Shown: positions 12,178-44,747 of the stretch, piece by piece | Layout: each line of letters begins with the position of its first letter | How positions within the stretch are numbered: position 1 is the stretch's first letter | NCBI GenBank assembly: GCA_031292355.1 | Contig: JARLHI010000076.1 | Location: 1 to 64,000, forward strand | Source of the DNA: Candidatus Obscuribacterales bacterium | Lineage (GTDB): Bacteria; Cyanobacteriota; Vampirovibrionia; Obscuribacterales; Obscuribacteraceae | Direction of reading: 5' to 3' | Length of the DNA: 64,000 bases | The notes under the pieces: generated by a model | What the model saw: the letters and a program-made list of their open reading frames with translations, nothing else | Databases searched by the model: none | Told to the model about the DNA's origin: nothing | Position numbers and translations under genes: made by a program

Positions 12178-12203
12178 AGAAATAGATGTTAAAGAGGCTC
12201 GCT

Positions 12204-12485
12204 ATGTCTGCGGAACTAAAAAAAGAACGACTTGATCTTCGTATCCCGCCTGCGGTGAAAATACAAATTGAAAAAGCAGCGGAATTGCAAGGTCGAAGTG
12301 TGTCTGATTTTGTTGTCGCTGCTGCACTGGCACAAGCGACGCACATCATTCAGCAACAGATGGTGCTAAAGCTTTGTCTGGCGGATAGCATGGCTCTTGC
12401 CGAAGCCTTCGTAACTGAGCCAGAACCGAATCCAAAAGCCATAGAGGCCGCTGAGCGATATCGTGCAAAGTTGGGGCCGCTATAG
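12204..12485 (+). CDS. DUF1778-type ribbon-helix-helix antitoxin (TacA/AtaR-like)
   Basis: The N-terminal 50 residues form a ribbon-helix-helix DNA-binding fold: RLDLRIPPAVKIQIEKAA followed by GRSVSDFVVAAAL, the DUF1778 hallmark. The C-terminal half (AEAFVTEPEPNPKAIEAAER) is the usual toxin-neutralising segment. I chose the ATG at 12204 because AAAGAGG lies 6 bases upstream and the protein then begins at the conserved region. An in-frame ATG at 12186 has no ribosome-binding site and would lie at the predicted transcript start. It ends 2 bp before the GNAT toxin gene, so the pair is an operon, probably autorepressed through the operator at 12149-12177. Confidence 0.85.
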   Translation: MSAELKKERLDLRIPPAVKIQIEKAAELQGRSVSDFVVAAALAQATHIIQQQMVLKLCLADSMALAEAFVTEPEPNPKAIEAAERYRAKLGPL

Positions 12486-12487
12486 GC

Positions 12488-13105
12488 ATGGATTTTGAGA
12501 TCCACCCCTGGACGCCGGAACACAATTGCACAGAATTCAATTCAAGCCTTAAAAGCGTTGAAAAATACATACAGGAACAGGCAGCTCGGGCAATGTCGAG
12601 CAAAATGTCAACAATATTTGTGTTGACAGAAAAGGGAGACCAATTGGTGCGGGGTTATTACACCCTTTCATCGATGAGTCTGAATTTTGAAGAATTACCG
12701 ACGGCCTTGCAAAAAAAGTTGCCTCGCTACCCTCAAGTCGGAGCAACTTTGCTTGGTCGTCTGGGCGTCGATGAGCGTTACCGTGATCAATTGAGTAAAA
12801 AAGGCGACAATCCCAGGCTGGGCGAACTTTTGCTTGTTGACGCTCAAAAGAATTGTCTAAGAGGGTCAGCAACTGTTGCTTCGGCGATTATGCTTATCGA
12901 TGTCGAAGAGCCCAATTCGGAAGAACTGGCTTCCGGTGCACGCGATCCGATGAGGTTTTACACTCAGTACGGATTTATTCCTTTGCCTAGAACTCCGAGA
13001 ACACTCTTTAAGCGTCTAAGCACCATAGAAAAGGAGCTCACCGCGCTCCACAAAAGAAATACAGTGAGTGTTGAAGTGAAAGACCAGATGCCACCGTTAG
13101 CTTGA
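12488..13105 (+). CDS. GNAT-family toxin of a TacT/AtaT-like toxin-antitoxin pair
   Basis: Family members acetylate the amino group of aminoacyl-tRNA and stop translation. This 205-residue protein keeps the family blocks RGYYTLSSMSLNFEELP, KLPRYPQVGATLLGRLGVDE, LGELLLVDA and FYTQYGF, including the probable catalytic Tyr of FY. Two things are odd. The acetyl-CoA pyrophosphate loop, normally RxxQGxGxG directly before LL, reads YRDQLSKKGDNPRLGELLL, an insertion that breaks the Q/R-x2-G-x-G/A pattern. A second insertion (EEPNSEELASGARDP) lies between the last core strand and the FY helix. The N-terminal Cys-Gly usual in the family is absent. The protein may be inactive or have an altered substrate. 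Position, size and the adjacent DUF1778 antitoxin support the module. Confidence 0.85.
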   Translation: MDFEIHPWTPEHNCTEFNSSLKSVEKYIQEQAARAMSSKMSTIFVLTEKGDQLVRGYYTLSSMSLNFEELPTALQKKLPRYPQVGATLLGRLGVDERYRDQLSKKGDNPRLGELLLVDAQKNCLRGSATVASAIMLIDVEEPNSEELASGARDPMRFYTQYGFIPLPRTPRTLFKRLSTIEKELTALHKRNTVSVEVKDQMPPLA

Positions 13106-14514: not shown

Positions 14515-15618
14515 CTAAGATGACGGCGCATTAAGAGCAACATTTCTCTTGCGCAAATACCAGTCCACCAGTTGACTGAGTTCCTGACTAAAATCCTTTT
14601 GCGTAGTGAATCCCAGTTCGTCACGGATTTTTTCGCACGATACGTAACAATGTCTTACGTCGCCAGGCACAAACTGCTGGTCGACTTGCGCTTCCACGAA
14701 GGGCTGATTCAGACGCTCTGACACAAGAATTCCCAGCCGTTTGCTTATGTCTAAAAGACTGCTCTGCTTACCAGAGCCTACGTTATAGAAAGCCGAACCT
14801 GAACGGGCTTTAGTTAGTGCAAGCAAATTAGCTTGAATTACATCATCGAGAAAAATGAAGTCACGCATCTGCAAGCCATCTTCATGCAAAACTGGTGCTT
14901 GCGAGCCACTGAGCAAATCGAGGAAATGTGTAATTGGACTGTGCCAGGATTGTCCGGCACCAATTATGGTGCAATAGCGCAAGCTGACGAAGCTTATATC
15001 GAGTAAATTGCAGGCGCCAGCCAACAAATCCTCTTGAGTCTTTTTTGTGACAGCATAAACAGATTCGCCCAGGCGTTCAGCTTCTTCGGTTGCTGGAATG
15101 GGCTCGATTACGGCCCCACATTTGGGGCACGGGGGGTTCCAATCAATACCTGTCGACGTTGTCGCAACGGGCTTTCTATAACGCAAACGTGGACGAACTG
15201 GACCACACGTCTCACACTGATAAACACCCTCACCGTAAACACTAATAGAAGAACCGAGCACAACCAGGCGTGGACGTTTCTTTGCTCGCTTTAAAGCATC
15301 AACTAGGGTCGCTGCCGAACCCACGTTCGTCTGCACAAATTCTTGAGTGTTTTCCACGGCGGCGAAAACGCCTTGATTAGCTGCCTTATGAAAAATCACA
15401 TCGGCGGATCCGACCAGATCGATTACAACTTCAGCATCGCACATATCACCCTGGACAATTTCGACTGATTGCAATTCTTCTTTGGTAAGCAAATCAGGCA
15501 CAGAGAATCTACGAGTGCGAGCAAGAGTGGTGACATGATGCCCCGCACCTACCAAAGCCTTTGTCACATGCGAACCAATCAGACCGGTACCACCGGTGAT
15601 GATAATTCTCTCTGCCAT
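14515..15618 (-). CDS. NAD-dependent sugar-nucleotide epimerase/dehydratase (extended SDR) with zinc-ribbon insert
   Basis: This 367-residue extended SDR has the nucleotide-binding GGTGLIG (9-15) and the catalytic YAVTK (Tyr188, Lys192). Between the VYGEG strand and the active site lies an insert with CETC (135-138) and CPKC (164-167), a zinc-ribbon-like Cys4 set also known from a subfamily of related epimerases. Substrates of this class are nucleotide sugars; which one is used here cannot be told. It is the last gene of the minus-strand operon that starts with the split transketolase, 6 bp after the sulfotransferase gene. It may finish the sugar built by the operon. Confidence 0.85.
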   Translation of the reverse strand: MAERIIITGGTGLIGSHVTKALVGAGHHVTTLARTRRFSVPDLLTKEELQSVEIVQGDMCDAEVVIDLVGSADVIFHKAANQGVFAAVENTQEFVQTNVGSAATLVDALKRAKKRPRLVVLGSSISVYGEGVYQCETCGPVRPRLRYRKPVATTSTGIDWNPPCPKCGAVIEPIPATEEAERLGESVYAVTKKTQEDLLAGACNLLDISFVSLRYCTIIGAGQSWHSPITHFLDLLSGSQAPVLHEDGLQMRDFIFLDDVIQANLLALTKARSGSAFYNVGSGKQSSLLDISKRLGILVSERLNQPFVEAQVDQQFVPGDVRHCYVSCEKIRDELGFTTQKDFSQELSQLVDWYLRKRNVALNAPSS

Positions 15619-15624
15619 GTCAAC

Positions 15625-16605
15625 CTACTTAGAGGATTTGCCAGCCGTAAGAGCCATTTGCGGCTCGGCTGGAACTCCATCATCGAGCAAAGTACGATAA
15701 CCAAAAACATCAAGGTATTGCGCAGTCATCTGACGAATTTGTTCTTTTTCAGAAGCCGACAACTCGTGAGCCGTGGCAATATTAGCTTCAGGAGTAGCTT
15801 TGCGAATCGTGCCCCAGGGATAGACCTCGGTCAATTCCTTACCGTTCCAGGTTGGTGTTTTAAGACTATCAGCGACTTCCAAGCCAAGCTTCGTACAAAT
15901 TTCGCCCAGAGCTTTTTTCGAATCAGCCATGACATCTTCAGCGCGAACAATGTGCATGCGGTCAGGAAATTGCTCTTTGTACAAGAGGGCAAAATACTGA
16001 TTTAGGGTCCAACCAACCATGTAATTTTTCAATGACAGAGGCACTGGACGCTTTTTGGTATCAGCATAGGCAGACCAGGGATTGCGCACGACGTGCAAGA
16101 AATGAGCTTCCGACATGTCGTTTAAAATTTTGTCGGCATCAACTACAAGCACTGGACTGTAGCCAACATACACTTCTTCACGTCCAGATTTTTTGTAGTC
16201 TTTCCAGGCTTCAAAAGATGCTTTGAAAAAGGCTGCGACATTTTTTGCTCGTGAACGACCACTGACTTTAATGTGCGCAAGATACTTTTCGAGACGATCG
16301 TCATCGGAAAATTCCATCGGTTCATGACGAAATTTGCTCACATTCGGCGTGCGGGCCCGCACTTTTCCTTCTTCATCGATAATGGCTTTGTAATCTTCAT
16401 ATGGGGTAGCATCCAGAGCAAATTCGGGCCAGCGGTATTTGACAGGAAATGTGGATGAAAGCTGATCATTGACCAGTCTCGTGCCAAGCTGCGACTCGAA
16501 GGGATAAACGAAAAGCTGAGGATGACCATCTAAAAATCGATGCGTTGTATTGCCACCATTTTCATACATAGCGCCAAGCATCAATAAACGAAATTTGTCG
16601 GTCAT
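15625..16605 (-). CDS. Sulfotransferase-family protein
   Basis: The 326-residue product resembles PAPS-dependent sulfotransferases. The 3'-phosphate-binding motif is visible as FLHVVRNPWSAYAD, and the late VRAEDVMADSKKALGEICTKLGL stretch matches the family's conserved C-terminal helix region. The N-terminal phosphosulfate loop is atypical (GAMYENGGNTTHRFLDGHP, lacking the usual RSGTT), so a very divergent member or another P-loop transferase is possible. In a polysaccharide operon the natural role is O-sulfation of a sugar residue. It lies 63 bp after the TIGR03032-type gene and 6 bp before the epimerase. Confidence 0.75.
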   Translation of the reverse strand: MTDKFRLLMLGAMYENGGNTTHRFLDGHPQLFVYPFESQLGTRLVNDQLSSTFPVKYRWPEFALDATPYEDYKAIIDEEGKVRARTPNVSKFRHEPMEFSDDDRLEKYLAHIKVSGRSRAKNVAAFFKASFEAWKDYKKSGREEVYVGYSPVLVVDADKILNDMSEAHFLHVVRNPWSAYADTKKRPVPLSLKNYMVGWTLNQYFALLYKEQFPDRMHIVRAEDVMADSKKALGEICTKLGLEVADSLKTPTWNGKELTEVYPWGTIRKATPEANIATAHELSASEKEQIRQMTAQYLDVFGYRTLLDDGVPAEPQMALTAGKSSK

Positions 16606-16668
16606 AACACTTCCTCGATATCAGAACCAATCACATCTACAACCAGATCAAAAATAAGCGAAACCCAT

Positions 16669-17877
16669 TCAAGTTTTGAAAGCGTAAAAGAGCCCCCTGG
16701 TATTTTTGAGATCTTTATGGCCTTTGTACAAAAATGGAAAACCGGTTGACTGTTTTGCAGGCAACCAGTCAATGGCAAAAATTTGATTGCCATACTTCCA
16801 GGCAATGCTGCCGAGAACCTTGCCAGATTTTATAGCAATTGCGTGAACCGCACATATGCTGCTATTAACGTCGAGCCCTGGAGCGTACTGGGCAAAGCGC
16901 GGAATAACGCGCGAAGTGCCCACAAACGCCACATCCTGGCAAATTGACAGACCTCTGGTCCAGCCAGGAAGTGTCACAACAGGACAAAAAACTTCGTCAT
17001 CAATGTAACCAAATTCACCATAACCGCTATTGTCAACCCATATTTTTTCTCGCCCAGAAGACCCGTCCAGCCGAGCTGAATGCGGTCGAGTCAGCCCTCG
17101 AGCGATTACTTGCCTGCTCTTACCCGAAAATATGACCCCTCGTCCATCGACTGGATAATTCTGATGCCCCGGTCGTCTGGATGATATTTTGTCGGATGAA
17201 GCCGAGAAAAACGATTGCGATAAATTAGCACCGGCTGCAATCGAATTTAGTTGAATGTAATTCTGGCCAAAATCGGGCTGACCATCGCGCTCGATGCAAT
17301 CTGGCCACCAGACACGCTCAAAACTGCCATCATCTTCAATCTTGATGACGGCGTTTTGACCAACGGCATTGGCATGCAATTTGCCGCCAATCATCGCCAG
17401 ATCATGCATATAGAGACAGCCTGGAAAAAAAGTAGAACGCACAGAAACAAGTGGTTTCCTACCAGGGGACAAGACACTGATGTCATCTCTGTCATGCAGT
17501 CCTTGTACAGGCTTAAGTGTGAATATTTGATTGGGGTTTCTGGTGCTTGCAATATGCACTTGCGACTTCAGTCGATCGACTGCAATACCAGAGGGATGCG
17601 GCAAGGGCATATAGCTGATTTCAGGACGTTTTGCACTACCTAAAGCAAGAAGGAAGTGTTCGTATTCTCGCCCGACTAGAAGTGTTATTTTCAGGCGTTC
17701 CAAAACGCCCCACCAGTCGCCTTTTACTTTAAAATCAAGTAGCCTTTGATCGATATCTGAGGCTCCGCCAAAGTGACCATTGATTTGCGCTGGATCACGC
17801 AGAAGTCCACCATGCTCCGCCCATAACGACTCGGCTTCCGAGTCTAAATTCGACTTCTGTTTTGCATTTCTCGCCAC
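16669..17877 (-). CDS. TIGR03032/DUF4915-type protein
   Basis: This 402-residue protein is recognised by its central block PHPSGIAVDRLKSQVHIAST and RNPNQIF (about 92-118), plus GVGQ/HDLAMIGG-like strands that suggest a beta-propeller. I recall this as the TIGR03032 (DUF4915) family of unknown biochemical role, seen in polysaccharide and sulfotransferase neighbourhoods. It has no signal peptide or membrane segment, so a cytoplasmic location is likely. The predicted GTG start overlaps the upstream GT2 gene by 34 bp, suggesting translational coupling; no better start is seen downstream. An enzyme or sugar-binding role is inference only. Confidence 0.7.
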   Translation of the reverse strand: MARNAKQKSNLDSEAESLWAEHGGLLRDPAQINGHFGGASDIDQRLLDFKVKGDWWGVLERLKITLLVGREYEHFLLALGSAKRPEISYMPLPHPSGIAVDRLKSQVHIASTRNPNQIFTLKPVQGLHDRDDISVLSPGRKPLVSVRSTFFPGCLYMHDLAMIGGKLHANAVGQNAVIKIEDDGSFERVWWPDCIERDGQPDFGQNYIQLNSIAAGANLSQSFFSASSDKISSRRPGHQNYPVDGRGVIFSGKSRQVIARGLTRPHSARLDGSSGREKIWVDNSGYGEFGYIDDEVFCPVVTLPGWTRGLSICQDVAFVGTSRVIPRFAQYAPGLDVNSSICAVHAIAIKSGKVLGSIAWKYGNQIFAIDWLPAKQSTGFPFLYKGHKDLKNTRGLFYAFKT

Positions 17878-18566
17878 AGCTCGAATGCCCCCCAGTACAT
17901 TTTGAATGCCGAACCATAATTAGTGGTTGACTTGCCACCATGCCGTCTTGTGGAAAGCACAGGCACTTCAATGATTGGATAGTTTTCCATACGGCAAATT
18001 GCATTGAACTCAGCATCGATTAAATCATCAGCACGATTCAAATCCATCAATTTAGTGAAGCTGCGAGGAAATACCTTCGGCGTACCATTGATATCCCAGA
18101 CAGGCAGATCGAAAAAGGCTCGGCATTCAAGATTGTAGATAAGCGATCCCAGGCGTCGTCTCCAATTATCGCGTACTTTTCGATTAGCTTTTACAACCAC
18201 CGCAGGAAATGCCTTGGCATACAAAATAGTCAATGTCAAAATTTCAGCAGTCGTGCGCGCCGAATTGGTGTAGCACAACAAATCCCCTTTGGCATGGCTT
18301 AAGCCCAGCTTGACCGAAAGCCCCCAGCCACCAGCGTTGCTATCGACGCAAACTACGTTTTCATTTTCCGCTGCCAGTTGCCGACAAACTTCAACAGATT
18401 GATCTGAACAAGCATTTGTAACCAGAACAATTTCATAGGTGCCAGGCACCACTGACAGTGCCTTCGCATAATTGGCGACAATTTCGCCAACATGATCTGC
18501 TTGATTATGGACAGGCAAAATCACAGATACACAGTTTTCCACAACCTTATTCAAACCAACACTCAA
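17844..18566 (-). CDS. Family 2 glycosyltransferase (DPM-like)
   Basis: The 240-residue protein is a short GT-A glycosyltransferase: SVILPVHNQADHVGEIV at the N terminus, EIVLVTNACSDQS for the nucleotide-binding strand and an Asn-Ser-Ala (YTNSART) at the place of the usual DxD. The missing Asp is unusual and may point to altered metal or donor use. No membrane anchor is present. Its start overlaps the stop of the transketolase C-terminal subunit by 4 bp (ATGA), so it belongs to the same operon. Donor and acceptor are unknown. Confidence 0.8.
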   Translation of the reverse strand: MSVGLNKVVENCVSVILPVHNQADHVGEIVANYAKALSVVPGTYEIVLVTNACSDQSVEVCRQLAAENENVVCVDSNAGGWGLSVKLGLSHAKGDLLCYTNSARTTAEILTLTILYAKAFPAVVVKANRKVRDNWRRRLGSLIYNLECRAFFDLPVWDINGTPKVFPRSFTKLMDLNRADDLIDAEFNAICRMENYPIIEVPVLSTRRHGGKSTTNYGSAFKMYWGAFELWREMQNRSRI

Positions 18567-19492
18567 AACAACGCACCAAGCTTCAGCGTGCTAGCTAATC
18601 GCTGTACAGACTCGGCAGAAATTCCCAGCCGTTCGTGCATAAATTTTTGCGAACCGGTAATACCATCAGGAGTATTTTCAACGGCACATCTAGTTAGCTT
18701 GCACGAAATACCTTCCTGAGCGATAACCTCAGACACAAAAGAAGCGAGTCCGCCGCTAGCGTAATGAGCTTCGAGCGTGATGACATTGTCGAAACCTTGC
18801 AAATAGTTAGCAAGGTCTCGGGTAGGCGACGGATTGAACGACGAAACAAGCAACAATGAAGCTTTGATGCCCTGTGCCCAAAGCAAGTCACAAGCTCTAT
18901 TAGCTTCAGCAGCAATAGCTCCTAGAGAAACAACAACGAGGTCACTACCATCGCGAATTTTCTGAATTTTGCCGAGAGTGAATTCACCATTCAAGCCAGG
19001 CACAATCGTCTTATCATCTTTACCCAGGCGATAATAGACTGGCTGGGGCAGATCGTATGTTGCACGCAAAGCATTTTTAGTTTGCTCGGCATCCGCTGGC
19101 GCAACAACAGTCATTCCTGGCTGGGTGCGCATCACGGCAATATCTTCCAGACCATAATGCGAAGCACCATTGTGTGCGTATTCAACACCACCACCGACGC
19201 CTACAATGCGCACGGGCAGGTGCTGCAAGATAGGACCGTTGCGAATGAATTCATATGGTCTCAAGGTGGCGAACGTAACAATAGAATAGACAAATGGCAA
19301 AAAACCGGCTTCAGCCAGACCAGTAGCGATGCCCACCATATTTTGTTCGGCCACACCGACATTGATGAAGCGCTCAGGAAATTTATTAGCAAATGGCTCG
19401 AGAGCCATATAGCCAAGATCACCGGTTAGCAAAAAAATCCTTGAATCAGTCTCTGCCAGCGCGGTTAAAGTGGCAGCGAATGCACCTCTCAT
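18563..19492 (-). CDS. Transketolase, C-terminal subunit (split enzyme)
   Basis: The 309-residue product matches the pyrimidine-binding and C-terminal domains of thiamine-diphosphate transketolases. The catalytic Glu lies in INVGVAEQNMVGIATGLAEA, and further family strands (GPILQHLPVRIVGVGGG, VYYRLGK) follow. It starts inside the stop of the N-terminal subunit (4-bp overlap), so the two halves are made together and should form a heterotetramer. Transketolase moves two-carbon ketol units between sugar phosphates. Inside a polysaccharide operon such split copies probably serve a dedicated sugar rather than central metabolism; this is inference. Confidence 0.9.
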   Translation of the reverse strand: MRGAFAATLTALAETDSRIFLLTGDLGYMALEPFANKFPERFINVGVAEQNMVGIATGLAEAGFLPFVYSIVTFATLRPYEFIRNGPILQHLPVRIVGVGGGVEYAHNGASHYGLEDIAVMRTQPGMTVVAPADAEQTKNALRATYDLPQPVYYRLGKDDKTIVPGLNGEFTLGKIQKIRDGSDLVVVSLGAIAAEANRACDLLWAQGIKASLLLVSSFNPSPTRDLANYLQGFDNVITLEAHYASGGLASFVSEVIAQEGISCKLTRCAVENTPDGITGSQKFMHERLGISAESVQRLASTLKLGALF

Positions 19493-20463
19493 GCGTTTAT
19501 CTCCTCCAGCTCGCGATTAGCCTGGATAAACTCAGATTCAGACAGAGGACTGTAATGCCACTTAATCTGGTGCTCCATAAATGAAACACCTTTACCAAAA
19601 GTCGTTTTAGCAATAAGCACTTTCGGTTTTCCAGACAGACCTTTCGCCACAGCCAGTGTGATTTTTAAAGCCTCAAGATCGTGTCCATCCACTTCATCAA
19701 CGTGCCAACCGAAAGCTCGAAACTTATCGGCCAAACATTCGAGATTGATCACTTCGCTTGTATACCCAAAAGCTTGCTGTCCGTTGAGATCAACTATCGC
19801 AACCAGATTATCCAACCGATGGTGAGCGGCAAACATAATTGATTCCCACAATGCACCTTCATTGCACTCAGCGTCACTGACAAGAACATAGACTTGCCTA
19901 CTCGAATTTTGAACACGAGCAGCAAGAGCAGCGCCCACACCAAAAGAAAGACCCTGTCCAAGAGAACCCGTGGCGAAGTCGACACCCGGGCAGACCAGCT
20001 CTGGATGCACACCGAGTTTGGAGCCGTCGGCACAAAAAGAATCGAGCGTTTCTTGGTCGATGAAATCACACAAGTGTAAAGCTGCGTACAGAGCCAGAGC
20101 CGCATGACCTTTGGACAGGACAAAACGGTCGCGTTCTGGGTCTTTTACATCCTGCACATTGATAATGCCACCATACAAAGCGGCGATAATATCGGCGACA
20201 GATAACGCCGAGCCGATATGCCCGACGCCTGCGCGACGCGACTGCTCGATGATAATTTGTCGAATCTGGCAAGCGGAAAGCAATGGATTCTCGCGAAAAC
20301 TCCAGATTAGTGTAAATGATCGAAGCCCGTCAGTAGACTTTCTTGGACATGCTTTATCGATCGTGTCATTAGAACTTATCAAAGTAAGAGACGTCAGACT
20401 CGGCCCAAACCGCCTTAACGCCTGCCAAATGGCAGTTGAGCCGGATTGTAAACAGCTGCTCAC
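19489..20463 (-). CDS. Transketolase, N-terminal subunit (split enzyme)
   Basis: The thiamine-diphosphate-binding half: VGHIGSALSVADIIAALYGG, RFVLSKGHAALALYAAL, GSLGQGLSFGVGAALA and SDAECNEGALWES with a downstream VDLNGQQ, the usual GDGxxxEG...N motif in a variant form. Family similarity starts near residue 60 (ENPLLSACQIRQ). The 60 residues before it, from the GTG at 20463, look non-coding and have no ribosome-binding site; an in-frame TTG at 20283 is close to the expected start. The true start is therefore uncertain and the gene may be about 180 bp shorter. It heads the operon running to 14515. Confidence 0.85.
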   Translation of the reverse strand: MSSCLQSGSTAIWQALRRFGPSLTSLTLISSNDTIDKACPRKSTDGLRSFTLIWSFRENPLLSACQIRQIIIEQSRRAGVGHIGSALSVADIIAALYGGIINVQDVKDPERDRFVLSKGHAALALYAALHLCDFIDQETLDSFCADGSKLGVHPELVCPGVDFATGSLGQGLSFGVGAALAARVQNSSRQVYVLVSDAECNEGALWESIMFAAHHRLDNLVAIVDLNGQQAFGYTSEVINLECLADKFRAFGWHVDEVDGHDLEALKITLAVAKGLSGKPKVLIAKTTFGKGVSFMEHQIKWHYSPLSESEFIQANRELEEINA

Positions 20464-20557: not shown

Positions 20558-21979
20558 TTGTTGAATCGCAAACCAAAAGTCGTGGCGATTGTGCCTTCAT
20601 TCATTGCTTCGTGCCAGATCAACGTGATCAAGCCGTTACAGGGACTGGTTAATCGCGGTTTGATTCAGCTCGAAGTAAAGCAAGAAACGCGCGCGAATGT
20701 AAATTGCGTGCATCAAGCCGATCTAGTCGTGTTCTGTCGCAATACAGAGCCAAGCTACGCTTATTTGCTCAACGAAGCAGTTTCAACCAACAAGCCCATT
20801 ATTTACGACCTGGATGACAATTTCTGGGACGTTCCTTTTGAGACCGACCCAGAGCTTGCAAGATATCACCGCCTTCCACTACGGATCCAACAACTCGAAA
20901 AATACCTGACAAAAGCCACTCTGGTCCGGGTTTACAGTCCAGTTATGGGCGACATCATCAGTAAATTTAACCGTAACGTCAAATTTCTCAAAGCTGGATT
21001 TGACTTTGATTTGCTGCCTACTCAAAAGTCTAAAAGCAAAAACGAAAAACTGCGTGTCGTTTACGCCACCAGCCGCACCGTAGACAACCAATACAAACTC
21101 TTTTCAGGTGGGCTTTTCAAAGCGCTCGAGCAACTGGGCGATTCAATAGAATTTACAATCTGGGGCTGCCAACCCGGTGATTTGATTGGTCAGAAGGGCA
21201 TCCAGACTTTACCTCTGGTCGGCGACTACGAAGATTTTCTGCGCCAGTTTGCACGTCAGTCTTTCGACATTGGCCTTGCGCCAATGGAAGACACCGCCTT
21301 CTACCGCTCGAAGACAAACACCAAGTTCAGAGACTATGGTGCTTGCAAAGTCGCTGGAATCTACTCGAATGTGCAAGTTTATGCTGACTGTGTGGAGAAC
21401 AACCGCACTGGATTGCTCGTTGAAAACACTACAGAAGGCTGGTACGAAGGCATCTCTGCTCTGGTGCGAGATCAAAATTTACGCGAAAGCATCCAAAAGA
21501 ACGCCTACGAGCAAGTATACACATACTATCGTCAACAAATCGTTGAAGACCAGTGGCTCGAGCAAATTGAGCAAATCCTCTTAGCCGATCCCTGCTATTC
21601 GCTCACGCACAGTCCATCGCGTCAGGTCACGGAACTCTTGATTAGAGCAGACAGAGATAATTTTTCTGGCGTCACTCTACCGCTATTTTCTCCCGGCAAA
21701 GAATTGAGTCTGGGGAATTTGTTTTTGGAAATATTGACCGCTGATAACGGTGTCATCCGCGAAGCCTCGTCGACTCAGCCCATTCGCAATGAAGAAAAAG
21801 GCATTGCTGAATTCAATTTCAGCCCCATCCGCAACTCGCAGCAAAAAGAATTCATTTTGCGTTTCATCAGCGCGCCATCCAACTCTACAGATGCGAGCGC
21901 GAGCCAGTGGCACCCAGTTTCTGGTTTCGTGCACATGCAGTATGGCGGGGTCAGTGCTAAAGTAGGGGCACTAATTTGA
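20558..21979 (+). CDS. GT4-type glycosyltransferase with C-terminal beta-sandwich
   Basis: The 473-residue protein has a two-Rossmann glycosyltransferase domain: an N-terminal block with IYDLDDNFWDVP, a nucleotide-sugar region (VVYATSRTVDNQ ... FTIWGCQPGD) and an APMEDTAFYRSKTNTKFRDYGACK stretch (split here only by length) that corresponds to the donor-binding loop of GT4 enzymes. The last 130 residues form a beta-rich module resembling that of the next gene. The start is TTG at 20558 with GAGG 7 bases upstream; a second TTG follows at once. It is divergent from the transketolase operon and overlaps the next gene by one base. Confidence 0.8.
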   Translation: MLNRKPKVVAIVPSFIASCQINVIKPLQGLVNRGLIQLEVKQETRANVNCVHQADLVVFCRNTEPSYAYLLNEAVSTNKPIIYDLDDNFWDVPFETDPELARYHRLPLRIQQLEKYLTKATLVRVYSPVMGDIISKFNRNVKFLKAGFDFDLLPTQKSKSKNEKLRVVYATSRTVDNQYKLFSGGLFKALEQLGDSIEFTIWGCQPGDLIGQKGIQTLPLVGDYEDFLRQFARQSFDIGLAPMEDTAFYRSKTNTKFRDYGACKVAGIYSNVQVYADCVENNRTGLLVENTTEGWYEGISALVRDQNLRESIQKNAYEQVYTYYRQQIVEDQWLEQIEQILLADPCYSLTHSPSRQVTELLIRADRDNFSGVTLPLFSPGKELSLGNLFLEILTADNGVIREASSTQPIRNEEKGIAEFNFSPIRNSQQKEFILRFISAPSNSTDASASQWHPVSGFVHMQYGGVSAKVGALI

Positions 21980-22698
21980 TGTTTGAGACAAATGCGTTGT
22001 CCGAATTAAACAGACCGCCCAAAACTGATAGCGACCCTGAAAGTAATCACCTGGACGATTCCGACCAGGTGCGATTGCTTAAAGCGCGCATTGAAAAGCT
22101 CGAACAAGAAATCTTCAACGTTAGCAACAAAGGCAAACTGATTGCCCAGGAACTGGATCTTTTCAGACAAAGGCGGGTCGTCTTCTGGTCGGACCGCTTC
22201 CGCAATACTTTTGATGCCTGGAATTTGATGCATCACAGTTTTCAGCAACTCAAAGACGACAGCCTGCTTTTTCACAAGGGTATCCAAAAATTTCGCTTAC
22301 AACCAAGCTACAGCCTCTTGCGTGTGCCCTATTTAACTTATAGTTTACATCCCGATCGTCCCAATCTGTGCGGCATTTTGCTCGCTCCTATACTCGATGT
22401 GCCAGTGCAAGCGGGTGAAATTTGTATCCGCATTTTCTCAGAGCCTGACAATCTAGTTGCCGCCTGCAACCGTTCGGTCAGCGAAATTGTTGATGATGAG
22501 CCAGTTCTATTCGAATTCCCAGCTATTGCCTGTTCTCATTCTACAAAACTGCACATGCGTGTTTATGTTCAGGCAGTGGATGCACCAATTCGCATTTTCG
22601 AACTGCGACACTATGAATTGGGCGGCTTTGGACGGCTGAAAACAAAACCATTTGTCGGATTTCTATTTGCCGATAGTCAAACCGTTACTAAGCCCTGA
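21979..22698 (+). CDS. Coiled-coil plus beta-sandwich protein of unknown function
   Basis: The ATG at 21979 overlaps the upstream stop (TGATG). An in-frame TTG one codon earlier is less likely. The 239-residue product has a predicted coiled coil at about residues 25-65 (VRLLKARIEKLEQEIFNVSN), then a basic linker, and from about 100 onward a beta-rich domain (TYSLHPDRPNLCGILLAP, EICIRIFSEPDNLVA, LHMRVYVQ). The domain resembles the C-terminal module of the neighbouring GT4 protein. The combination suggests a carbohydrate-binding partner of that transferase; I recognise no catalytic motif. Confidence 0.7.
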   Translation: MFETNALSELNRPPKTDSDPESNHLDDSDQVRLLKARIEKLEQEIFNVSNKGKLIAQELDLFRQRRVVFWSDRFRNTFDAWNLMHHSFQQLKDDSLLFHKGIQKFRLQPSYSLLRVPYLTYSLHPDRPNLCGILLAPILDVPVQAGEICIRIFSEPDNLVAACNRSVSEIVDDEPVLFEFPAIACSHSTKLHMRVYVQAVDAPIRIFELRHYELGGFGRLKTKPFVGFLFADSQTVTKP

Positions 22699-32883: not shown

Positions 32884-34122
32884 TTAGCGGCTTAGCAACT
32901 CAGTTTTATGAATAGAGATGTAGTCGGCAAGACGCCAAAAAAAGCGTTCACCGCCAACTCCATTCAAATGCAACAAATCGCTAAAATCACCATAGGAATA
33001 ATCGATTGGCTTGCCTGAATTGGTGACAAAAATTCCTTTTCTACAAGCAGCAGCAGCAATTGCATCGGTGTAGCGCCTTTCAACGACGGCGGGCGCGCAC
33101 ATGCCTGGGTAAAGAGGCACCTGGGTGATGACAAGCTTAATTCCGTGCCTTTCGCACAGGGCAATAGACTGTTTGAACGCCTCGAATTGACGGGCTTCAA
33201 ACTTTTTATTTCTCAATGCGAGAATCTCATTTTGGGTTTGAGGATTGAGCATGAGGCAATTGATCCTGCCTGCAATTTTCGCATCGTAGTGATTTTCTGA
33301 TTCAGACTCTGTCGCCATACGGTTTCGCAAAATATCCGACTGACCAAATAATGCTTTAAACAGGGGCATCTTGCACGTGCCACGATAAGTTTGATAAGCA
33401 AAATAAAAACGTTGCTCATCCATATAACGAGTCAAAACGCTCGGTCTGGCGTAGACGAGAAGTTGTCTGCTCAAGCGGCTAGCGGATGAGCAGACAGGCA
33501 CAGGCGAGATGTCACCCAAAGCGAATTGGATGGGCTCATCAAGCTTTTCAATGGCTGGCCAGTTTGCTGGCACCACAAAATCTCTAACGTTTACGGCAAA
33601 AATGACGACATCTGGTTTCTTGCCAAACGCCACCGCATTTTTTAAAAGCAAAAGATCGTCGGTAATGTTTGCAGTGGGAATACCCATGTGTGCGGCCGAG
33701 ACATTGTTAATGCCATGACCAGCCAAGGCTTCCAGGAAAAAAGCTGGACAGGCGTAATTCACACTAGCCGTTTGCAGCTGGATTACACTCTTTGGTTGAG
33801 CGATCGCACCATTTTTGATATCACTCATCAAAGAAGGTACTAAACCAACCGACGAACTCAAAAGTAAAATATTCGGTTTAGATGATGAACACAAAAAACG
33901 TTCGAACCTTGGGCACCAGCAATCTGCAGACAATTTACGAATGAGAAAATCAATGCGCTCTCTGTGACCAATAGTGCCGGCGACAGCAATAAAGAGGACA
34001 AGAAAAATAGCCGCAGAACTGACTGCACGTGAGCGCATAAAGAAATTAAAGGAAGCAGATTCAGGTTCCTTGTCAGAACGGATAGCTTCCACGACCTTAA
34101 CTGTTACGGTCTCAATGGACAT
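32884..34122 (-). CDS. Membrane-anchored SGNH-hydrolase-like protein of the O-acetylation operon
   Basis: The 412-residue product has one membrane segment (about 35-52) and an outward domain with SGNH-type motifs: an early ILLLSSSVG block (Ser89-91) and a late SDLLHLNGVGG block (Asp382, His385), the pair that forms the catalytic Ser-Asp-His in DltD/AlgJ-like acyl carriers. It is the last gene of the minus-strand export/O-acetylation operon, overlapping the AlgX-like gene by 11 bp. It probably passes acetyl groups from the MBOAT protein to the polymer or removes them. Similarity is limited to these motifs, so the exact role is inferred. Confidence 0.7.
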   Translation of the reverse strand: MSIETVTVKVVEAIRSDKEPESASFNFFMRSRAVSSAAIFLVLFIAVAGTIGHRERIDFLIRKLSADCWCPRFERFLCSSSKPNILLLSSSVGLVPSLMSDIKNGAIAQPKSVIQLQTASVNYACPAFFLEALAGHGINNVSAAHMGIPTANITDDLLLLKNAVAFGKKPDVVIFAVNVRDFVVPANWPAIEKLDEPIQFALGDISPVPVCSSASRLSRQLLVYARPSVLTRYMDEQRFYFAYQTYRGTCKMPLFKALFGQSDILRNRMATESESENHYDAKIAGRINCLMLNPQTQNEILALRNKKFEARQFEAFKQSIALCERHGIKLVITQVPLYPGMCAPAVVERRYTDAIAAAACRKGIFVTNSGKPIDYSYGDFSDLLHLNGVGGERFFWRLADYISIHKTELLSR

Positions 34123-35809
34123 TCCTTGCTTCTAAATCCTTGAGACCTAACAACACTCTGGCTGTTCCCCAATCGGTTTTTGCCGCTACAGCAGCCATAC
34201 AATTGCCATCGGTAGAATGCAAATTAATGCCTAACTGAGTGATTTTAAGTCCTCTGCTGCGGGGGATTTCAACTGTATCAGTCCATTCACTAAAGGCAGG
34301 AATTGTTCGAGCAAAGGCATCCTGGTCATATTCAGCCTGGGCAAGCACAACACCGGCATCAGACATGGCGTGCACACTCACTCGTCGCTTCAATACTTGC
34401 TCAGTCAAGCTGCGCCATTGTAGTTTCACCAGCAATCCAGACTTACTTGGACTAACCACTATATTTGTCAACTCAAACTGATGATCAAAATTGGCAAGAA
34501 CTGCTTTGTATGAAGATGCAGGAGGACGTTCAACACCGCCGGCGGCGATCGTTTTACTTAGCAAAAACTGAGGAATATTTTCCGGCTCGTGATCATAAAG
34601 ATGCCGTTCAGCCATTTCATCTACGACCAGGTCGGGCTTTTGAGCAAGCACCTGAGGCGCTATCAATCTATTACTCCAGTGGAATTCGGTGAAGCTGGCT
34701 CGCTCGGCAAATAGGGGGATCAAATAACCAAAAAATGAGTCACGCAGAACAAACACCCGGGGCAAAGTAGAGTCAGGGTGAACCCAGGCGAAAGAAGGCA
34801 CCCAGCAATCAGGCACTGGAGCAATTTTGGCATCAGCTTTTAAATGAGCCCTTTCATGCTCCATGACGACACACATACAGCGTTCGGCGAGGAAATCTCC
34901 AAACCCCAACATTTTGGCAAGATCGCCTTTGAAGGGATAATCGGTTGTGAGCCGATAGTCATAGGGCGAATAAGGCTTAACGGCGGGAAACTGCAAATGA
35001 ATATGCTTGAACATCTCTTGCACCACAAGAAACGCTCCGTATTGATTCCAGTGGGTATCGGGCTTATGGTAAAGCGGATACTGCCCGGGCTTGGATTTTA
35101 AAAGCAAAGCTTTGGCATCGATAAAATCAACATCTGTGTGGGCGCGCAAATAGTCCTGCAACTGATCCAAACGAGTCTGGCCAGGATGCACCTTTAAACG
35201 AGCTGGTAAATTTTCTGGACAAATAGTGCCTTTTTCAGGTGGTACAAAAAAAAGATATTTGATGCCATTCTCTGCCAAGAAATTCTTTCGAGCCTGTATC
35301 GCTCGTCCCCACAACTGCAAATTAGTATCAGTGAAAGGTTCCAGATTGCACTGAGGCGCAAGCGCAGAGGATTCGACATAATACAACCACTCGTTTTTAC
35401 CAATAGCCACCAGGCTGTGACCGGACGAATTTAATGCCCTTAGTAGCAGAAAATTGCGTGCTGCCACCATGGGTAAGCGAAATGCAAATCGATCGTTATA
35501 GAATTTCTCAAAGCCTTGCGCAAATTTCGGCAAATCTTTCTTGACTGTGTGCAAGTTGGGAAACGGCGCGAGCACACGCTTTTCAGTTGGAGAGACCGAC
35601 GATTGATTGGAAGCAGTCGTCCAGGCGGCAGCGGCTGTAAAAAATACTACAGTGGCAATAAAAATACCAACAGTGACTGCGTTTTCCCAGTTTGGCTGAA
35701 CATGTAGCTTTAAAGCCTGTTCGAGCTGATTCAACTGAGAAGTTGATTTCACATCTGTCGACAATGGCGAATTCGAGATCAATTTATACCGCCCATGGTG
35801 CGTCCTCAA
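34112..35809 (-). CDS. AlgX/AlgJ-like polysaccharide O-acetyltransferase
   Basis: The 565-residue protein has one membrane segment (about 45-65), an AlgX/AlgJ SGNH-like domain with Asp251 and His253 in PDTHWNQYG and Ser358 in LRDSFFGY, and a C-terminal beta-sandwich module. It is a clear paralogue of the protein at 5178-6881: both share the NGIKYLF/L...PEK block and the late TDW-x-ARVLL ending. It sits directly behind the MBOAT gene (29 bp), the canonical AlgI-AlgJ/X pairing in which AlgI brings acetyl groups across the membrane and AlgX places them on the chain. Confidence 0.9.
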   Translation of the reverse strand: MRTHHGRYKLISNSPLSTDVKSTSQLNQLEQALKLHVQPNWENAVTVGIFIATVVFFTAAAAWTTASNQSSVSPTEKRVLAPFPNLHTVKKDLPKFAQGFEKFYNDRFAFRLPMVAARNFLLLRALNSSGHSLVAIGKNEWLYYVESSALAPQCNLEPFTDTNLQLWGRAIQARKNFLAENGIKYLFFVPPEKGTICPENLPARLKVHPGQTRLDQLQDYLRAHTDVDFIDAKALLLKSKPGQYPLYHKPDTHWNQYGAFLVVQEMFKHIHLQFPAVKPYSPYDYRLTTDYPFKGDLAKMLGFGDFLAERCMCVVMEHERAHLKADAKIAPVPDCWVPSFAWVHPDSTLPRVFVLRDSFFGYLIPLFAERASFTEFHWSNRLIAPQVLAQKPDLVVDEMAERHLYDHEPENIPQFLLSKTIAAGGVERPPASSYKAVLANFDHQFELTNIVVSPSKSGLLVKLQWRSLTEQVLKRRVSVHAMSDAGVVLAQAEYDQDAFARTIPAFSEWTDTVEIPRSRGLKITQLGINLHSTDGNCMAAVAAKTDWGTARVLLGLKDLEARNVH

Positions 35810-35838
35810 TGGACGTCATAGATTGACAGACTGTGTTG

Positions 35839-37275
35839 TTAGAACCTGAAATAGATGAAGGGATTGTAGGTTCCCGAAGCCATCTCCATAATGGCGAAAG
35901 CAAGGATGCCGACGACGAGCAAAGTGCGCACAGTCGCTAGAACAAACGCCGGCTGTCTCGCTTCAACCGAAAGAGCTGGAGCAAAAACAAAATTGCGCAT
36001 GACTGGTGTTGAAATCAAAACACCCACTAGAAGAACGAAACACAGGCGGCCATCGAGCAGGAACGCGGCACTGGTATCACAAGAATCGACGGCCGCTTTG
36101 CCAAACATTGCCTGGCAAACAGCGATTGCTTGCGAGAACGAATTGGCACGGAAAAAGACCCAACCAATTAAAACAACAAATAAAGTATAGAGGTGCTGAA
36201 TCGGAGCAGGCACTGACTTCAGCACTTTGCCAAAGCCCAGCCTTTCTACGCCAAGAAAGAAACCATGATATAGCCCCCAGAAAACGAAGGTCCAGCTGGC
36301 ACCATGCCAGAGTCCACATAAGAAAAAGACTGTGACCAGATTCAAGCAAGTGCGCAACTCACCATGTCGGTTTCCGCCCAAAGGAATATAGAGATAATCT
36401 CTAAACCAATTTGAGAGAGAAATATGCCAACGCTGCCAGAATTCCCGAATCGACTGAGCGATATAGGGATAATTGAAATTTTCCAGGAAGCGGAAACCGA
36501 ACATCAGGCCAAGGCCTATCGCCATATCTGAATAACCAGAGAAATCAAAATAAATCTGCAACATGTAGCAGACAGCGCCCAGCCAGGCCAGCTCAGGGGT
36601 GAGCTGACTATTCGATAAACCAAAAATTTTGTCGACAGGTACTGCCACAGTATTAGCAATGAGCATTTTTTTGCCGAGCCCTGTGACGAAACGTCGTACA
36701 CCCTCAGCAAATTTATCGACACTGACAATGCGCTCTGTTAGCTGGTCGCACACATCGTGGTAGCGGATAATCGGACCTGCCACTAGCTGTGGAAACAGCG
36801 AAATATAGAGAGCGAGATTGACTGGATTGCGCTGGGCTTTTGCTTGCTTGCGATAAATATCGATTACATAAGAGAGAGCGTGGAATGTAAAGAACGAGAT
36901 GCCCAGCGGCAAATCAACCGGTGGCAAATTAATGGTTTGTTGACCGGCAGCTGTCAAAGCATTATTCAAATTGGCAACGATCCAGCCTGAGTATTTGAAA
37001 AACGCGAGCAAACCAAGATTAACGATTACAGTCAAAGTCAAAAATAGACGGCGCAAAGCAGGACTTTTAGTGTCGTCAATGACTATAGCCAAAGAATAAT
37101 TGACGACAATAGACAAAAGCATGATCCAGACGAATTTAATTTCGCCCCAGGCATAGAAAAAGAGACTAGCGAACAGCAAAAAGGCATTGCGAGCGGGAAT
37201 CGACCTCAGCAAAAAATACGCGGCTAGAACCACCGGCAGAAAAACAAACATGAAAATCAGCGAACAAAATACCAT
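35839..37275 (-). CDS. MBOAT-family O-acyltransferase, AlgI-like
   Basis: The 478-residue multi-pass membrane protein has the AlgI/MBOAT signature: LPLGISFFTFHALSYVIDIYR (in part), FPQLVAGPI, IYFDFSGYSDMAIGLGLM, REFWQRWHISLSNWFRDY with His284, and GLWHGASWTF with the catalytic His324. AlgI-type proteins move acetyl groups from the cytoplasm to a periplasmic transferase. Genes for the transferase (34112-35809) and an SGNH protein follow, and the ABC exporter genes precede it, all on one strand with gaps of 30 bp or less. The polymer exported is thus very likely O-acetylated outside the cytoplasm. Confidence 0.92.
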   Translation of the reverse strand: MVFCSLIFMFVFLPVVLAAYFLLRSIPARNAFLLFASLFFYAWGEIKFVWIMLLSIVVNYSLAIVIDDTKSPALRRLFLTLTVIVNLGLLAFFKYSGWIVANLNNALTAAGQQTINLPPVDLPLGISFFTFHALSYVIDIYRKQAKAQRNPVNLALYISLFPQLVAGPIIRYHDVCDQLTERIVSVDKFAEGVRRFVTGLGKKMLIANTVAVPVDKIFGLSNSQLTPELAWLGAVCYMLQIYFDFSGYSDMAIGLGLMFGFRFLENFNYPYIAQSIREFWQRWHISLSNWFRDYLYIPLGGNRHGELRTCLNLVTVFFLCGLWHGASWTFVFWGLYHGFFLGVERLGFGKVLKSVPAPIQHLYTLFVVLIGWVFFRANSFSQAIAVCQAMFGKAAVDSCDTSAAFLLDGRLCFVLLVGVLISTPVMRNFVFAPALSVEARQPAFVLATVRTLLVVGILAFAIMEMASGTYNPFIYFRF

Positions 37276-37296
37276 TTGTAGTTTCTCGGTAGGATT

Positions 37297-38166
37297 TTAA
37301 ACTGCAACTGTTGTAACCAGATCGGTGACGGGCGCAATGGGACCGTCCACTTCGGCGACTGCAGAGGCGTCGCCACCGACAAATTCTTCGTGGAAGGTAG
37401 GCTGAGCCGGGTGCGTAGCATCGATGACAATATTTTCCATGTAATAGTCAATTGACTCTTGTGGGCTACCCTCAAAAACAACCTGTCCCTTGTACATAAC
37501 AATGGCGCGATTGCAAAGTTCGAGAATGTGATTGTTGTCGTGTGATACCAGAACCAGAATTTGCGATTTATCCATCATTTGATGAAGACGGTTCATACAT
37601 TTAGAAACGAATTGAGCATCGCCAGCAGCAAAGATTTCATCCATCAAAAGAATTTCTGGATCGGCAATAGCGCCGATAGAAAAAGCGAGGCGACCATGCA
37701 TACCAGTGGAATAGTATTTGATCGGCAAATCAATCATTTCGCCGAGTTCAGAGAATTCGATGATGGCATTCTCTAGAGACTTCATCATCTTGTATGAACG
37801 ACCGAGCAAAGCTCCGTTGAGGAAGATGTTTTCGCGACCACTCAATTCATGATCAAAACCAGTTCCTAATTCGATCATGGGCGTAATTTTGCCCTTAACT
37901 TCAATTTCACCCACTTGCGGCGGATAAATGCCAACGATCGTCTTAAGCAGGGTCGATTTACCAGCACCGTTCAGACCGACGATGCCCAAACGGTCACCAC
38001 TTTTTACTTCCAAATTGATATTTTTGAGCGCATCAAATTCGGTGACAGCGTTAGTCTTCTTTCGACGAAATGTCTGCATCACTGTTTCTTTCAAACCAGG
38101 AGTAGGATTTCGATACAAACGAAAACGGAGAGAGGCGTCTCTTACTGATATGTGTACATCGCTCAT
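37297..38166 (-). CDS. Polysaccharide ABC exporter ATPase (Wzt/KpsT/TagH family)
   Basis: The 289-residue ATPase has Walker A GLNGAGKST (64-72), the family's signature YSTGMHGRLAFSI, Walker B EILLMDEIFAAGD and the H-loop VSHDNN. It belongs to the ABC-2 class that exports O-antigen, capsule or teichoic acid. The C-terminal extension after about residue 250 is short, so it lacks the large carbohydrate-recognition domain of O9a-type Wzt; export should not depend on a terminal modification read by that domain. Its ATG overlaps the end of the permease gene (4 bp), and it is followed after 21 bp by the AlgI-like gene. Confidence 0.92.
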   Translation of the reverse strand: MSDVHISVRDASLRFRLYRNPTPGLKETVMQTFRRKKTNAVTEFDALKNINLEVKSGDRLGIVGLNGAGKSTLLKTIVGIYPPQVGEIEVKGKITPMIELGTGFDHELSGRENIFLNGALLGRSYKMMKSLENAIIEFSELGEMIDLPIKYYSTGMHGRLAFSIGAIADPEILLMDEIFAAGDAQFVSKCMNRLHQMMDKSQILVLVSHDNNHILELCNRAIVMYKGQVVFEGSPQESIDYYMENIVIDATHPAQPTFHEEFVGGDASAVAEVDGPIAPVTDLVTTVAV

Positions 38167-39092
38167 AGTCTAAAAATGATGTCCTTTTCTTTTTTCTGCA
38201 AAACCCAGAAACCGGCGGTTAAGGTCAATGTTGCGTACATGATGCACCAGCCCCATTCTTGAGCAGGAGGCAGTTGACCGTCAAAGATCAAAGAGCGATA
38301 CAACAGAATGAAGTGAGTGAAAGGATTGGAAAGGAAAATGTGAGCATATTTCTCAGGCAAAGCATTCAAAGGCCAAATGATCGGAATAAAGTAGAAGAAA
38401 CTTTGCAGCACGACTTTGACAATGTGCGTCAAATCTCTGAAATAAACAGTGCCAACCGACAGGCACAATGTAATTCCAAAAGTGAACAAAAAGGTGACTG
38501 CAATTGCCGCTGGCAATACGAGCAATGCAAAGGTCGGTTTGAGACCCACGCACATTGCTAAAAGAATCATGCTGGTCAAGGCCAGAACGAAGTTGACACA
38601 TTCAGTGGAACAAGTAACCAGAGGAAAAAATAGCTTTGGTACATAGACCTTCTTCATAAAGGCTTCGGCATTTGTGATGGACATACAACCGATGGCGATT
38701 GATTCTGAAATAAATTGCCATGGCAACAGACCGGTGAACATATACATGCCATATGTCTTTGGGTCGCGATGAAAAAGCAGGGAGAAAATCGTCGTCAGTA
38801 CAACCATCATCAGCAATGGATTGAGCATGCTCCAGGCGAATCCGAGTACAGATCTTTGATAACGTCGTCTCAAATTATTAGTTACAAAGCTAACAAAAGC
38901 GAATTTGATGAAGCGCAGTTCATTAACCTTGCTGAATACGTAGCGAGGAAAACTGACGGGCGCCGCCTTTTTGCCGGCAATGATTGTGGCTGAAGGCAGC
39001 CCTAATTCATCAGGCTGAAAAGCGTCGAGCATGGCTACGTCAGGCATGACACCATCGGTTGAGAGAGCCTTATCTTGTTCCAGTGTTGCCAT
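38163..39092 (-). CDS. Polysaccharide ABC exporter permease (Wzm/TagG family)
   Basis: The 309-residue protein has about six membrane segments after a 70-residue cytoplasmic N terminus. The block RRYQRSVLGFAWSMLNPLL is the classic ABC-2 permease motif before the first segment, and FTGLLPWQFISESI and FYFIPIIWPLNALP are typical inner loops. With the overlapping ATPase gene it forms the exporter for a lipid-linked polysaccharide. It is the first gene of the operon that continues into AlgI-, AlgX- and SGNH-like genes, so export and O-acetylation are expected to be co-expressed. A promoter-like element lies 35 bp upstream. Confidence 0.92.
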   Translation of the reverse strand: MATLEQDKALSTDGVMPDVAMLDAFQPDELGLPSATIIAGKKAAPVSFPRYVFSKVNELRFIKFAFVSFVTNNLRRRYQRSVLGFAWSMLNPLLMMVVLTTIFSLLFHRDPKTYGMYMFTGLLPWQFISESIAIGCMSITNAEAFMKKVYVPKLFFPLVTCSTECVNFVLALTSMILLAMCVGLKPTFALLVLPAAIAVTFLFTFGITLCLSVGTVYFRDLTHIVKVVLQSFFYFIPIIWPLNALPEKYAHIFLSNPFTHFILLYRSLIFDGQLPPAQEWGWCIMYATLTLTAGFWVLQKKEKDIIFRL

Positions 39093-43712: not shown

Positions 43713-44747
43713 GTGGACAACGGTACTCAAATGCCAACATACGACTGGCACAGCAAAAGAGTTTTTGTGACCGGCGCAACCGGCTTGGTTGGAGCTTGGC
43801 TCGTAAAAGAGTTGGTGCGGCAAGGGGCTTATTGCGTCGTATTAATGCATGACTGTGACCCTCAGTCTGAATTGATTCGCTCTGGCACATTAGACGAAGT
43901 TACAGTTGTTAATGGCGCACTTGAAAATTTCAACTCTTTAGAACGTGCAATCAATGAACAGGAAATACAGACGGTATTTCACCTCGGCGCGCAACCAATA
44001 GTCTCTGTCGCCCATCGAAATCCGCTTCCAACCTTTGAGACAAACATTCGTGGAACCTACAACTTGCTGGAAGCATGCCGCATTCACAACAGCATGGTCA
44101 AAAGCGTCATCATCGCATCGAGCGATAAAGCATATGGTGAGTCTGCAATTCTGCCCTATACAGAAGACATGCCACTGGCCGGTAAGCATCCATATGAAGT
44201 GACAAAGAGCTGCACTGACCTCATTGCTCAGAGTTACGCGCACACATACAATTTGCCTATAGCTATCGCTCGGTGCGGTAACATTTTTGGTGGCGGCGAC
44301 TTAAATTGGTCACGAATAATTCCAGGAGTGATTCGCTCATTTCTGCGCGGCGAATCTCCAATAATTCGAAGCGATGGAACCTATATTCGTGACTATATCT
44401 ACGTTGAAGACGTTGCATTGGCATACCTGACGCTAGCAGAATGGATGACATCGAAAATTGCCGGACAGGGGTTTAACTTCAGCCCCGAGCGGCCGCTAAC
44501 GGTTTTAGAGTTGACAAATATGATCGCTAAGGTAATGAGAACTGAAAATATTAAGCCAACTATCCTCAATCAAGCTTGCGGTGAAATCAAGTCCCAATAC
44601 CTCGATTCAACCAAAGCCTTAGAGCAACTGGACTGGAAGCCAAAATTCACTATCGAAGCAGGTCTCGAAAAGACAGTAGAGTGGTATCGCGACTTTTTCA
44701 GCAAGCAGACAAATCAGTCGACAATGCAACTTTACGGGCGGAAATAA
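43713..44747 (+). CDS. rfbG: CDP-glucose 4,6-dehydratase
   Basis: The 344-residue extended SDR converts CDP-glucose into CDP-4-keto-6-deoxyglucose. NAD-binding [12 protein letters not shown], the catalytic block [12 protein letters not shown] and [17 protein letters not shown] (Tyr and Lys of the YxxxK motif) are the family signatures, and SSDKAYG is specific for RfbG-type enzymes. The start is GTG at 43713; an ATG at 43731 is also possible. It is followed after one base by the C-methyltransferase gene, so both are one transcript. Together with RfbF it supplies the keto sugar for branching. Confidence 0.93.

Follow-up and report, generated by a model that had tools for sequence, protein, structure and literature searches.

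A conserved operon in an Obscuribacterales genome encodes a split transketolase with an altered acceptor site, a candidate for making branched sugars of a surface glycan

The window, a stretch of 64,000 nucleotides on contig JARLHI010000076.1 of a Candidatus Obscuribacterales bacterium (assembly GCA_031292355.1), belongs to a 6.6 Mb draft genome of 83 contigs that is 95% complete. Six adjacent genes, each identified by profile, were found on its minus strand in the order TkN-TkC-GT2-DUF4915-ST-SDR:

19489..20283, minus strand: TkN, from its probable start, N-terminal ThDP/PP-domain subunit of a split transketolase (PF00456, 158 bits)
18563..19492, minus strand: TkC, C-terminal Pyr and TKC domain subunit with a non-canonical acceptor site (PF02779, PF02780)
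17844..18566, minus strand: GT2-fold protein of 240 aa, without DXD (PF00535, 36.9 bits)
16669..17877, minus strand: DUF4915 protein of 402 aa, predicted beta-propeller (PF16261, 167 bits)
15625..16605, minus strand: ST, sulfotransferase-fold protein of 326 aa (PF13469, Sulfotransfer_3, 35.9 bits)
14515..15618, minus strand: SDR, extended type (epimerase/reductase type) with a zinc-ribbon-like CxxC...CxxC insert (PF01370, 132 bits)

TkN overlaps TkC by 4 bp, TkC overlaps GT2 by 4 bp, and GT2 overlaps DUF4915 by 34 bp; gaps of 63 bp and 6 bp separate DUF4915 from ST and ST from SDR. These contacts bear out the single-strand operon described in an earlier note that was made from the DNA letters alone. 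The TkN open reading frame as called has 324 aa and extends up to a GTG at 20463, with homology to the split transketolase of Carboxydothermus starting at residue 62. Judging by this homology, the true start is probably the TTG at 20283, which would give a protein of 264 aa and shorten the called frame by about 60 codons.

A separate, full-length transketolase of 655 aa is encoded on another contig of the same genome (C62) and retains R358, S385, H461, D469, and R520 (E. coli TktA numbering, used throughout). The split pair is therefore not the housekeeping enzyme, in agreement with the earlier note, which regarded it as dedicated provided that a central transketolase was present elsewhere.

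The best solved matches of TkN and TkC were both the split transketolase of Carboxydothermus hydrogenoformans (6yak, E 5e-61, and 6yaj, E 4e-48, respectively). As in that enzyme (PMC7661550), the PP and the Pyr plus TKC domains are divided between two adjacent genes and the ThDP and Mg residues are intact, which places the pair among the split-gene transketolases. The window TkN retains H26, H66, H100, D155, E160, N185, and H261, and the TkC side retains R358, E411, F437, and H473. However, the H461/D469 motif of the Carboxydothermus TkC (THAGLTVGEDGASH) is not preserved in the window enzyme, which carries H461G, D469N, and R520K together with F434I, R91C, I189A, and G262Y, and position 385 is not Ser. 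At C91, non-Ser385, G461, N469, and K520 it thus departs from the canonical acceptor and phosphate residues of EC 2.2.1.1. Columns 358 and 385 of one small alignment were misaligned and were left out.

In a census of enzymes of this class, here called the clade, G461 was present in all 63 TkC proteins and D469 in none (0/63). Position 91 of the clade TkN proteins was C, G, Y, S, A, or N but never R, position 262 was Tyr in 59, R358 was retained in 62, and position 520 was mostly K or R. The canonical proteins compared had H461, D469, and R520 in 36/36 TkC and R91 in 21/21 TkN. In a FastTree phylogeny, all 63 clade TkC proteins fell into one branch without canonical members (support 0.97), which also held ten other non-canonical types. 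D469 and R91 form a salt bridge in E. coli transketolase, and in the engineered E. coli variant S385Y/D469T/R520Q, acceptor use shifts away from phosphorylated aldehydes and towards aldehydes that are aromatic or carry no phosphate (PMC5073344). The clade lacks both ends of this bridge between the chains, R91 of TkN having been lost together with D469 of TkC, and retains the catalytic residues. Nature has altered the same positions as those of the engineered enzyme, on both chains together. Phosphate may still bind, since R358 and K/R520 are retained.

We scanned one genome per species (84,980 species) with a TkC profile and also searched relatives of the window genome. Besides the window, six other genomes had the five-gene cassette TkN-TkC-GT2-DUF4915-ST, spanning four phyla in all. 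Three of the hosts are metagenome-assembled genomes of Chloroflexi (L068), Acidobacteria (L072), and Planctomycetota (L076), and three (L161, L162, L163) are members of the window's own family; in L076, ST and the SDR are placed before TkN. Identities of the six cassettes to the window were 50–66% for TkN, 41–68% for TkC, 39–68% for GT2, 47–64% for DUF4915, and 55–74% for ST. Among 30 relatives, the DUF4915 protein and ST occurred in exactly the same four genomes, and a TkC more than 50% identical to that of the window was found only in those four. The chance of two sets of 4/30 coinciding is 1 in 27,405 by a simple count that ignores kinship. The transketolase, DUF4915 protein, and ST thus co-occur far beyond chance.

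The SDR is the variable member of the operon. The window SDR carries its insert as CETC (135–138) and CPKC (164–167), and an ortholog (48% identical) was seen only in L163, from the relative G304, while the other cassettes use an unrelated SDR. The zinc-ribbon epimerase named by the earlier note is present in the window operon but was rejected as a core part of the cassette, in part by a pattern scan of narrow scope. A different SDR family, F1 (47–66% identical to the L068 member; 21–26% identity between F1 SDRs of other sub-clade loci and the zinc-ribbon SDR), follows ST in L068, L072, L161, and L162 and precedes TkN in L076. F1 SDRs also accompany close TkN-TkC pairs that lack GT2-DUF4915-ST (L067, L070, L071, L073, L074), and an SDR match follows TkC in L075. 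Across the clade, 30/50 loci contained an SDR gene compared with 0/19 canonical split-transketolase loci (Fisher p 2e-6, with loci counted as independent and selected by similarity to the window). In Paenibacillus plantiphilus (L078), SDR and TkN form one 584-aa open reading frame with both Pfam domains, and long fused frames were also found in Paenibacillus sp. MMS18-CY102 (L089) and in P. cellulosilyticus, where the frame is annotated as an SDR. An Asp-Glu pair marks 4,6-dehydratases such as RmlB. By eye, this pair was absent from both the zinc-ribbon and the F1 SDRs, and both types therefore look epimerase/reductase-like. The window genome also encodes an F1-type SDR on contig C59, where its neighbours are a guaA-like gene and further genes without an evident connection; it was therefore not retained as a clear partner in trans.

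The GT2-fold protein passed the PF00535 cut-off (36.9 against 23.3 bits) and matched ArnC in a profile search (9hwj, E 7e-12), relating it to ArnC-type polyprenyl-phosphate sugar transferases. The DXD metal motif was absent; the window protein reads Y-T-N-S-A-R-T, conserved as Y[TA]N[ST]ART across 7/7 cassettes. The DUF4915 protein exceeded the Pfam gathering score of 35 with 167 bits. Against TIGR03032, to which type the earlier note had assigned it, it scored 96.6 bits, below the curated cut-off of 251.5, and it is therefore a distant relative rather than a member of that equivalog. Structure prediction, which the note had suggested, gave a beta-propeller (AlphaFold2, pLDDT 83, pTM 0.88) whose Foldseek matches were generic six-bladed YWTD and other propellers, and a sequence search against the PDB found no match. 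Its conserved residues H158, N211, H266, R269, W280, and R308 could form a site, and the protein may act either as an enzyme or as a platform that binds sugars.

A general tie between the TIGR03032 family and transketolase was rejected after a survey of 292 genomes of the phylum: 48 had DUF4915, and among the matches listed only that of the window lay side by side with a split transketolase. The cyanobacterial TIGR03032/DUF4915 proteins share PF16261 and H158, N211, H266, R269, and R308 with the window protein; however, they are only 21–27% identical to it and are not beside a transketolase. Their domains are often fused to TPR plus GT41 (L147–L150, L155) or occur with GNAT (L150, L153, L154), which ties the DUF4915 family to glycan and protein-glycosylation enzymes.

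The cassette lies within a wider glycan locus, of which the following genes were identified:

20558..22698, plus strand: GT4 protein and 240-aa protein, divergent from the cassette, with homologues in L163
42578..43342, minus strand: rfbF, glucose-1-phosphate cytidylyltransferase (TIGR02623, 453 bits, cut-off 300)
43713..44744, plus strand: CDP-glucose 4,6-dehydratase-like SDR, rfbG-like (TIGR02622, 213 bits, cut-off 278)

The GT4 and 240-aa proteins adjoin the cassette in the window, and their homologues (55% and 60% identical) are close to the cassette in G304, beside wzt, wzm, and TkN. The rfbF and rfbG-like genes belong to this glycan locus at a distance of 22 kb from the cassette; rfbH was not seen with them in the window. 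They possibly supply CDP-glucose and a 4-keto sugar, respectively. A homologue 54% identical to the rfbG-like SDR lies within an rfbF-SDR-SDR-TkN-TkC operon (L095). Elsewhere in the clade, rfbF, rfbG, and rfbH accompany TkN-TkC in L088, L090, L100 (rfbH 714 bits against a 423-bit cut-off), and a plasmid of Methylovirgula sp. HY1 (L202). Among the seven cassettes, linkage to rfbF/rfbG was found only in the window, apart from a 148-aa rfbF-like fragment in L072. In other clade operons, of the L083 type, TkN-TkC is accompanied by genes for an isomerase (GmhA-like), a kinase (APH-like), and a nucleotidyltransferase.

The reading we prefer, with confidence close to even, is that the dedicated split transketolase adds a C2 ketol branch to a keto-sugar destined for a surface glycan. 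We infer the following chemistry, acceptor, order of steps, and protein roles. The enzyme, by analogy an alpha2beta2 assembly, would load its ThDP with a two-carbon ketol (dihydroxyethyl) group taken from a donor. The acceptor of this group would be a bulky sugar with a keto or aldehyde function, most likely in nucleotide-activated form, and the product a C-branched sugar. The SDR, of the zinc-ribbon type in the window and of the F1 type elsewhere, would make the acceptor carbonyl or reduce the new branch. The three remaining proteins (GT2-fold, DUF4915 propeller, and ST-fold) would come next, acting on the branched sugar or carrying it within the surface glycan, which the Wzm/Wzt system of the locus would export. 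C2 branching is favoured by the separate transketolase, the seven-genome cassette, the altered acceptor site, the SDR fusions, and the rfbFGH loci. Against it, the cassettes are mostly unlinked to rfbF/rfbG, R358 and K/R520 are retained, and some clade loci are of the GmhA-like/kinase kind.

The earlier note suggested a sugar made by two-carbon transfer and then sulfated. A dedicated transketolase working with an SDR in a sugar-modifying operon was supported; the ensuing sulfation fared poorly, and we consider the full pathway, with PAPS-dependent sulfation by ST, quite unlikely. ST does have the fold: it passed the PF13469 cut-off of 27 bits, and the top Foldseek matches of its model (pLDDT 74) were all sulfotransferases (best 4gox, E 9e-7). 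It resembles tyrosylprotein and CurM-type sulfotransferases (3ap1, 4gbm, 4gox) in fold and in the RNPxx region, and APS kinase is encoded in two of the host genomes, those of L072 and L076. However, the PAPS-binding motifs look altered. In a weak alignment read by eye, the 5'-phosphosulfate loop is YENGGNTT, with Asn or Glu for Lys/Arg, and Asp182 takes the Ser position of the 3'-phosphate motif in all seven cassette proteins. APS kinase was absent from 5/7 cassette genomes (the window genome, G293, G304, G306, and G318) but present in 11/14 control genomes, and no known PAPS source was therefore found in those five, where ST is the sole Sulfotransfer_3 protein; this absence is strong but not final, given that draft genomes have gaps and that four of these five are related. 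ST thus probably does not sulfate. In several cassette proteins, textbook motifs are thus missing although the fold is retained and conservation is good.

Among the readings that differ on the transfer itself, one has the split transketolase supply a special ketose phosphate (a heptulose or octulose phosphate, for instance) from which the locus builds an NDP-sugar. The near-invariant R358 and the mostly K/R position 520 suit it, as phosphate binding may persist, and the neighbours in L083-type operons would fit a ketose phosphate for NDP-heptose. However, H461, D469, and R91 are missing throughout the clade, genes for an isomerase, kinase, or nucleotidyltransferase are absent from the window cassette, and the SDR-TkN fusions and rfbFGH loci indicate an NDP-keto-sugar partner, and we regard a ketose phosphate product as unlikely. 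Still less probable, and slightly below the sulfation pathway, is transfer from hydroxypyruvate or another alpha-keto acid to a non-sugar aldehyde in a glycolipid or metabolite pathway. Transketolases accept hydroxypyruvate (PMC7661550) and the acceptor pocket is altered, but the surrounding genes encode SDRs of the sugar type, glycosyltransferases, and polysaccharide export functions. That a housekeeping or decaying split transketolase came to lie in a glycan locus by chance is highly improbable: no point in its support was found in this analysis, and against it stand the full-length enzyme elsewhere, the four-phylum cassette, the intact catalytic residues, and the same 4/30 relatives.

C2 branching by a split transketolase has partial precedents. 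The rfbFGH pathway leads to CDP-4-keto-3,6-dideoxyglucose, which the ThDP enzyme YerE uses as its acceptor when yersiniose is made (PMC12247030). The clade transketolases resemble YerE/YerF of yersiniose A in their place after RfbF, RfbG, and RfbH, in having an SDR partner, and in the proposed two-carbon branch on a CDP-keto-sugar. YerE, however, is a pyruvate-using, decarboxylase-type ThDP enzyme, whereas the clade is of the transketolase type and would be expected to transfer hydroxyacetyl rather than acetyl. For miharamycin and amipurimycin, a split transketolase with an oxidoreductase partner has been suggested, though not proven, to attach a hydroxyacetyl branch to a keto sugar (PMC12247030); that proposal concerns antibiotic clusters and 13 Streptomyces sequences, while the clade described here spans many phyla and often lies in surface-glycan loci. 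Tentatively, and with somewhat less than even confidence, we suggest that an unrecognised and widespread split-transketolase family, marked by G461 and the absence of D469 and R91, builds C2 branches onto NDP-keto-sugars for bacterial surface glycans, replacing YerE in CDP-dideoxyhexose pathways, and that the GT2-fold, DUF4915, and ST-fold proteins of the window sub-type carry out chemistry unlike their family names.

Relative to the earlier note, the case for the transketolase became stronger, that for sulfation weaker, and the TIGR03032 assignment different. A protein conserved under the name "sulfotransferase" may lack that activity, and the divergent DUF4915 protein is now placed in a defined gene setting. 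As candidates for natural transketolases that would accept ketone sugars, 13 Streptomyces sequences have been mentioned (PMC12247030). Our analysis adds a signature recognisable in sequence and greatly widens the range of candidates for such enzymes, including those of the cultured Methylovirgula sp. HY1 and Paenibacillus cellulosilyticus, and the neighbouring genes point to an acceptor.

In the window, two further groups of genes stood out beyond the cassette (split transketolase [TK] subunits TkN and TkC, GT2, DUF4915 and a sulfotransferase-fold protein).

12186-13105: DUF1778-like protein (99 aa), followed directly by a GNAT-like protein (205 aa)
32884-39092: AlgI/MBOAT-like, AlgX/SGNH-like and Wzt/Wzm genes

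As read from the sequence, the latter group may provide O-acetylation and ABC export within the cassette's glycan locus. Homologues of wzt and wzm adjoined the cassette at L163, from the window's own family. Judged by sequence alone, the 12186-13105 pair looks like a TacA/TacT-type toxin-antitoxin system. In the Acidobacteria cassette L072, a 148-aa fragment resembling rfbF (glucose-1-phosphate cytidylyltransferase) immediately preceded TkN (L072:2720-3163).

Split TKs with Gly at 461 (G461 class; E. coli TktA numbering) had a second recurring operon around TkN-TkC at L083, L086, L093, L101, L106, L126, and L127.

Genes: SDRs, GmhA-like SIS isomerase, APH-like kinase, nucleotidyltransferase
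Further genes: methyltransferase, Zn-alcohol dehydrogenase, 200-aa protein without Pfam matches

This operon appears to encode a hitherto undescribed route to an NDP-heptose or octose.

Another split-TK subgroup (L110, L117, L125, L129, L130, L139, L144), which retained H461, had Ala instead of Asp at 469 and mostly lacked R358, is separate from both the G461 and canonical classes. The split TK of Phaeobacter porticola plasmid pP97_b (L203), also outside the G461 class, had H461/Y469; its surroundings, with genes for aminotransferases and for ABC transporters next to it, look catabolic.

Cyanobacterial DUF4915 proteins at L147, L148, L149, L150, and L155 were large, with DUF4915 at the N-terminus, TPR repeats, and an O-GlcNAc-transferase-like GT41 domain; other cyanobacterial DUF4915 proteins carried GNAT domains.
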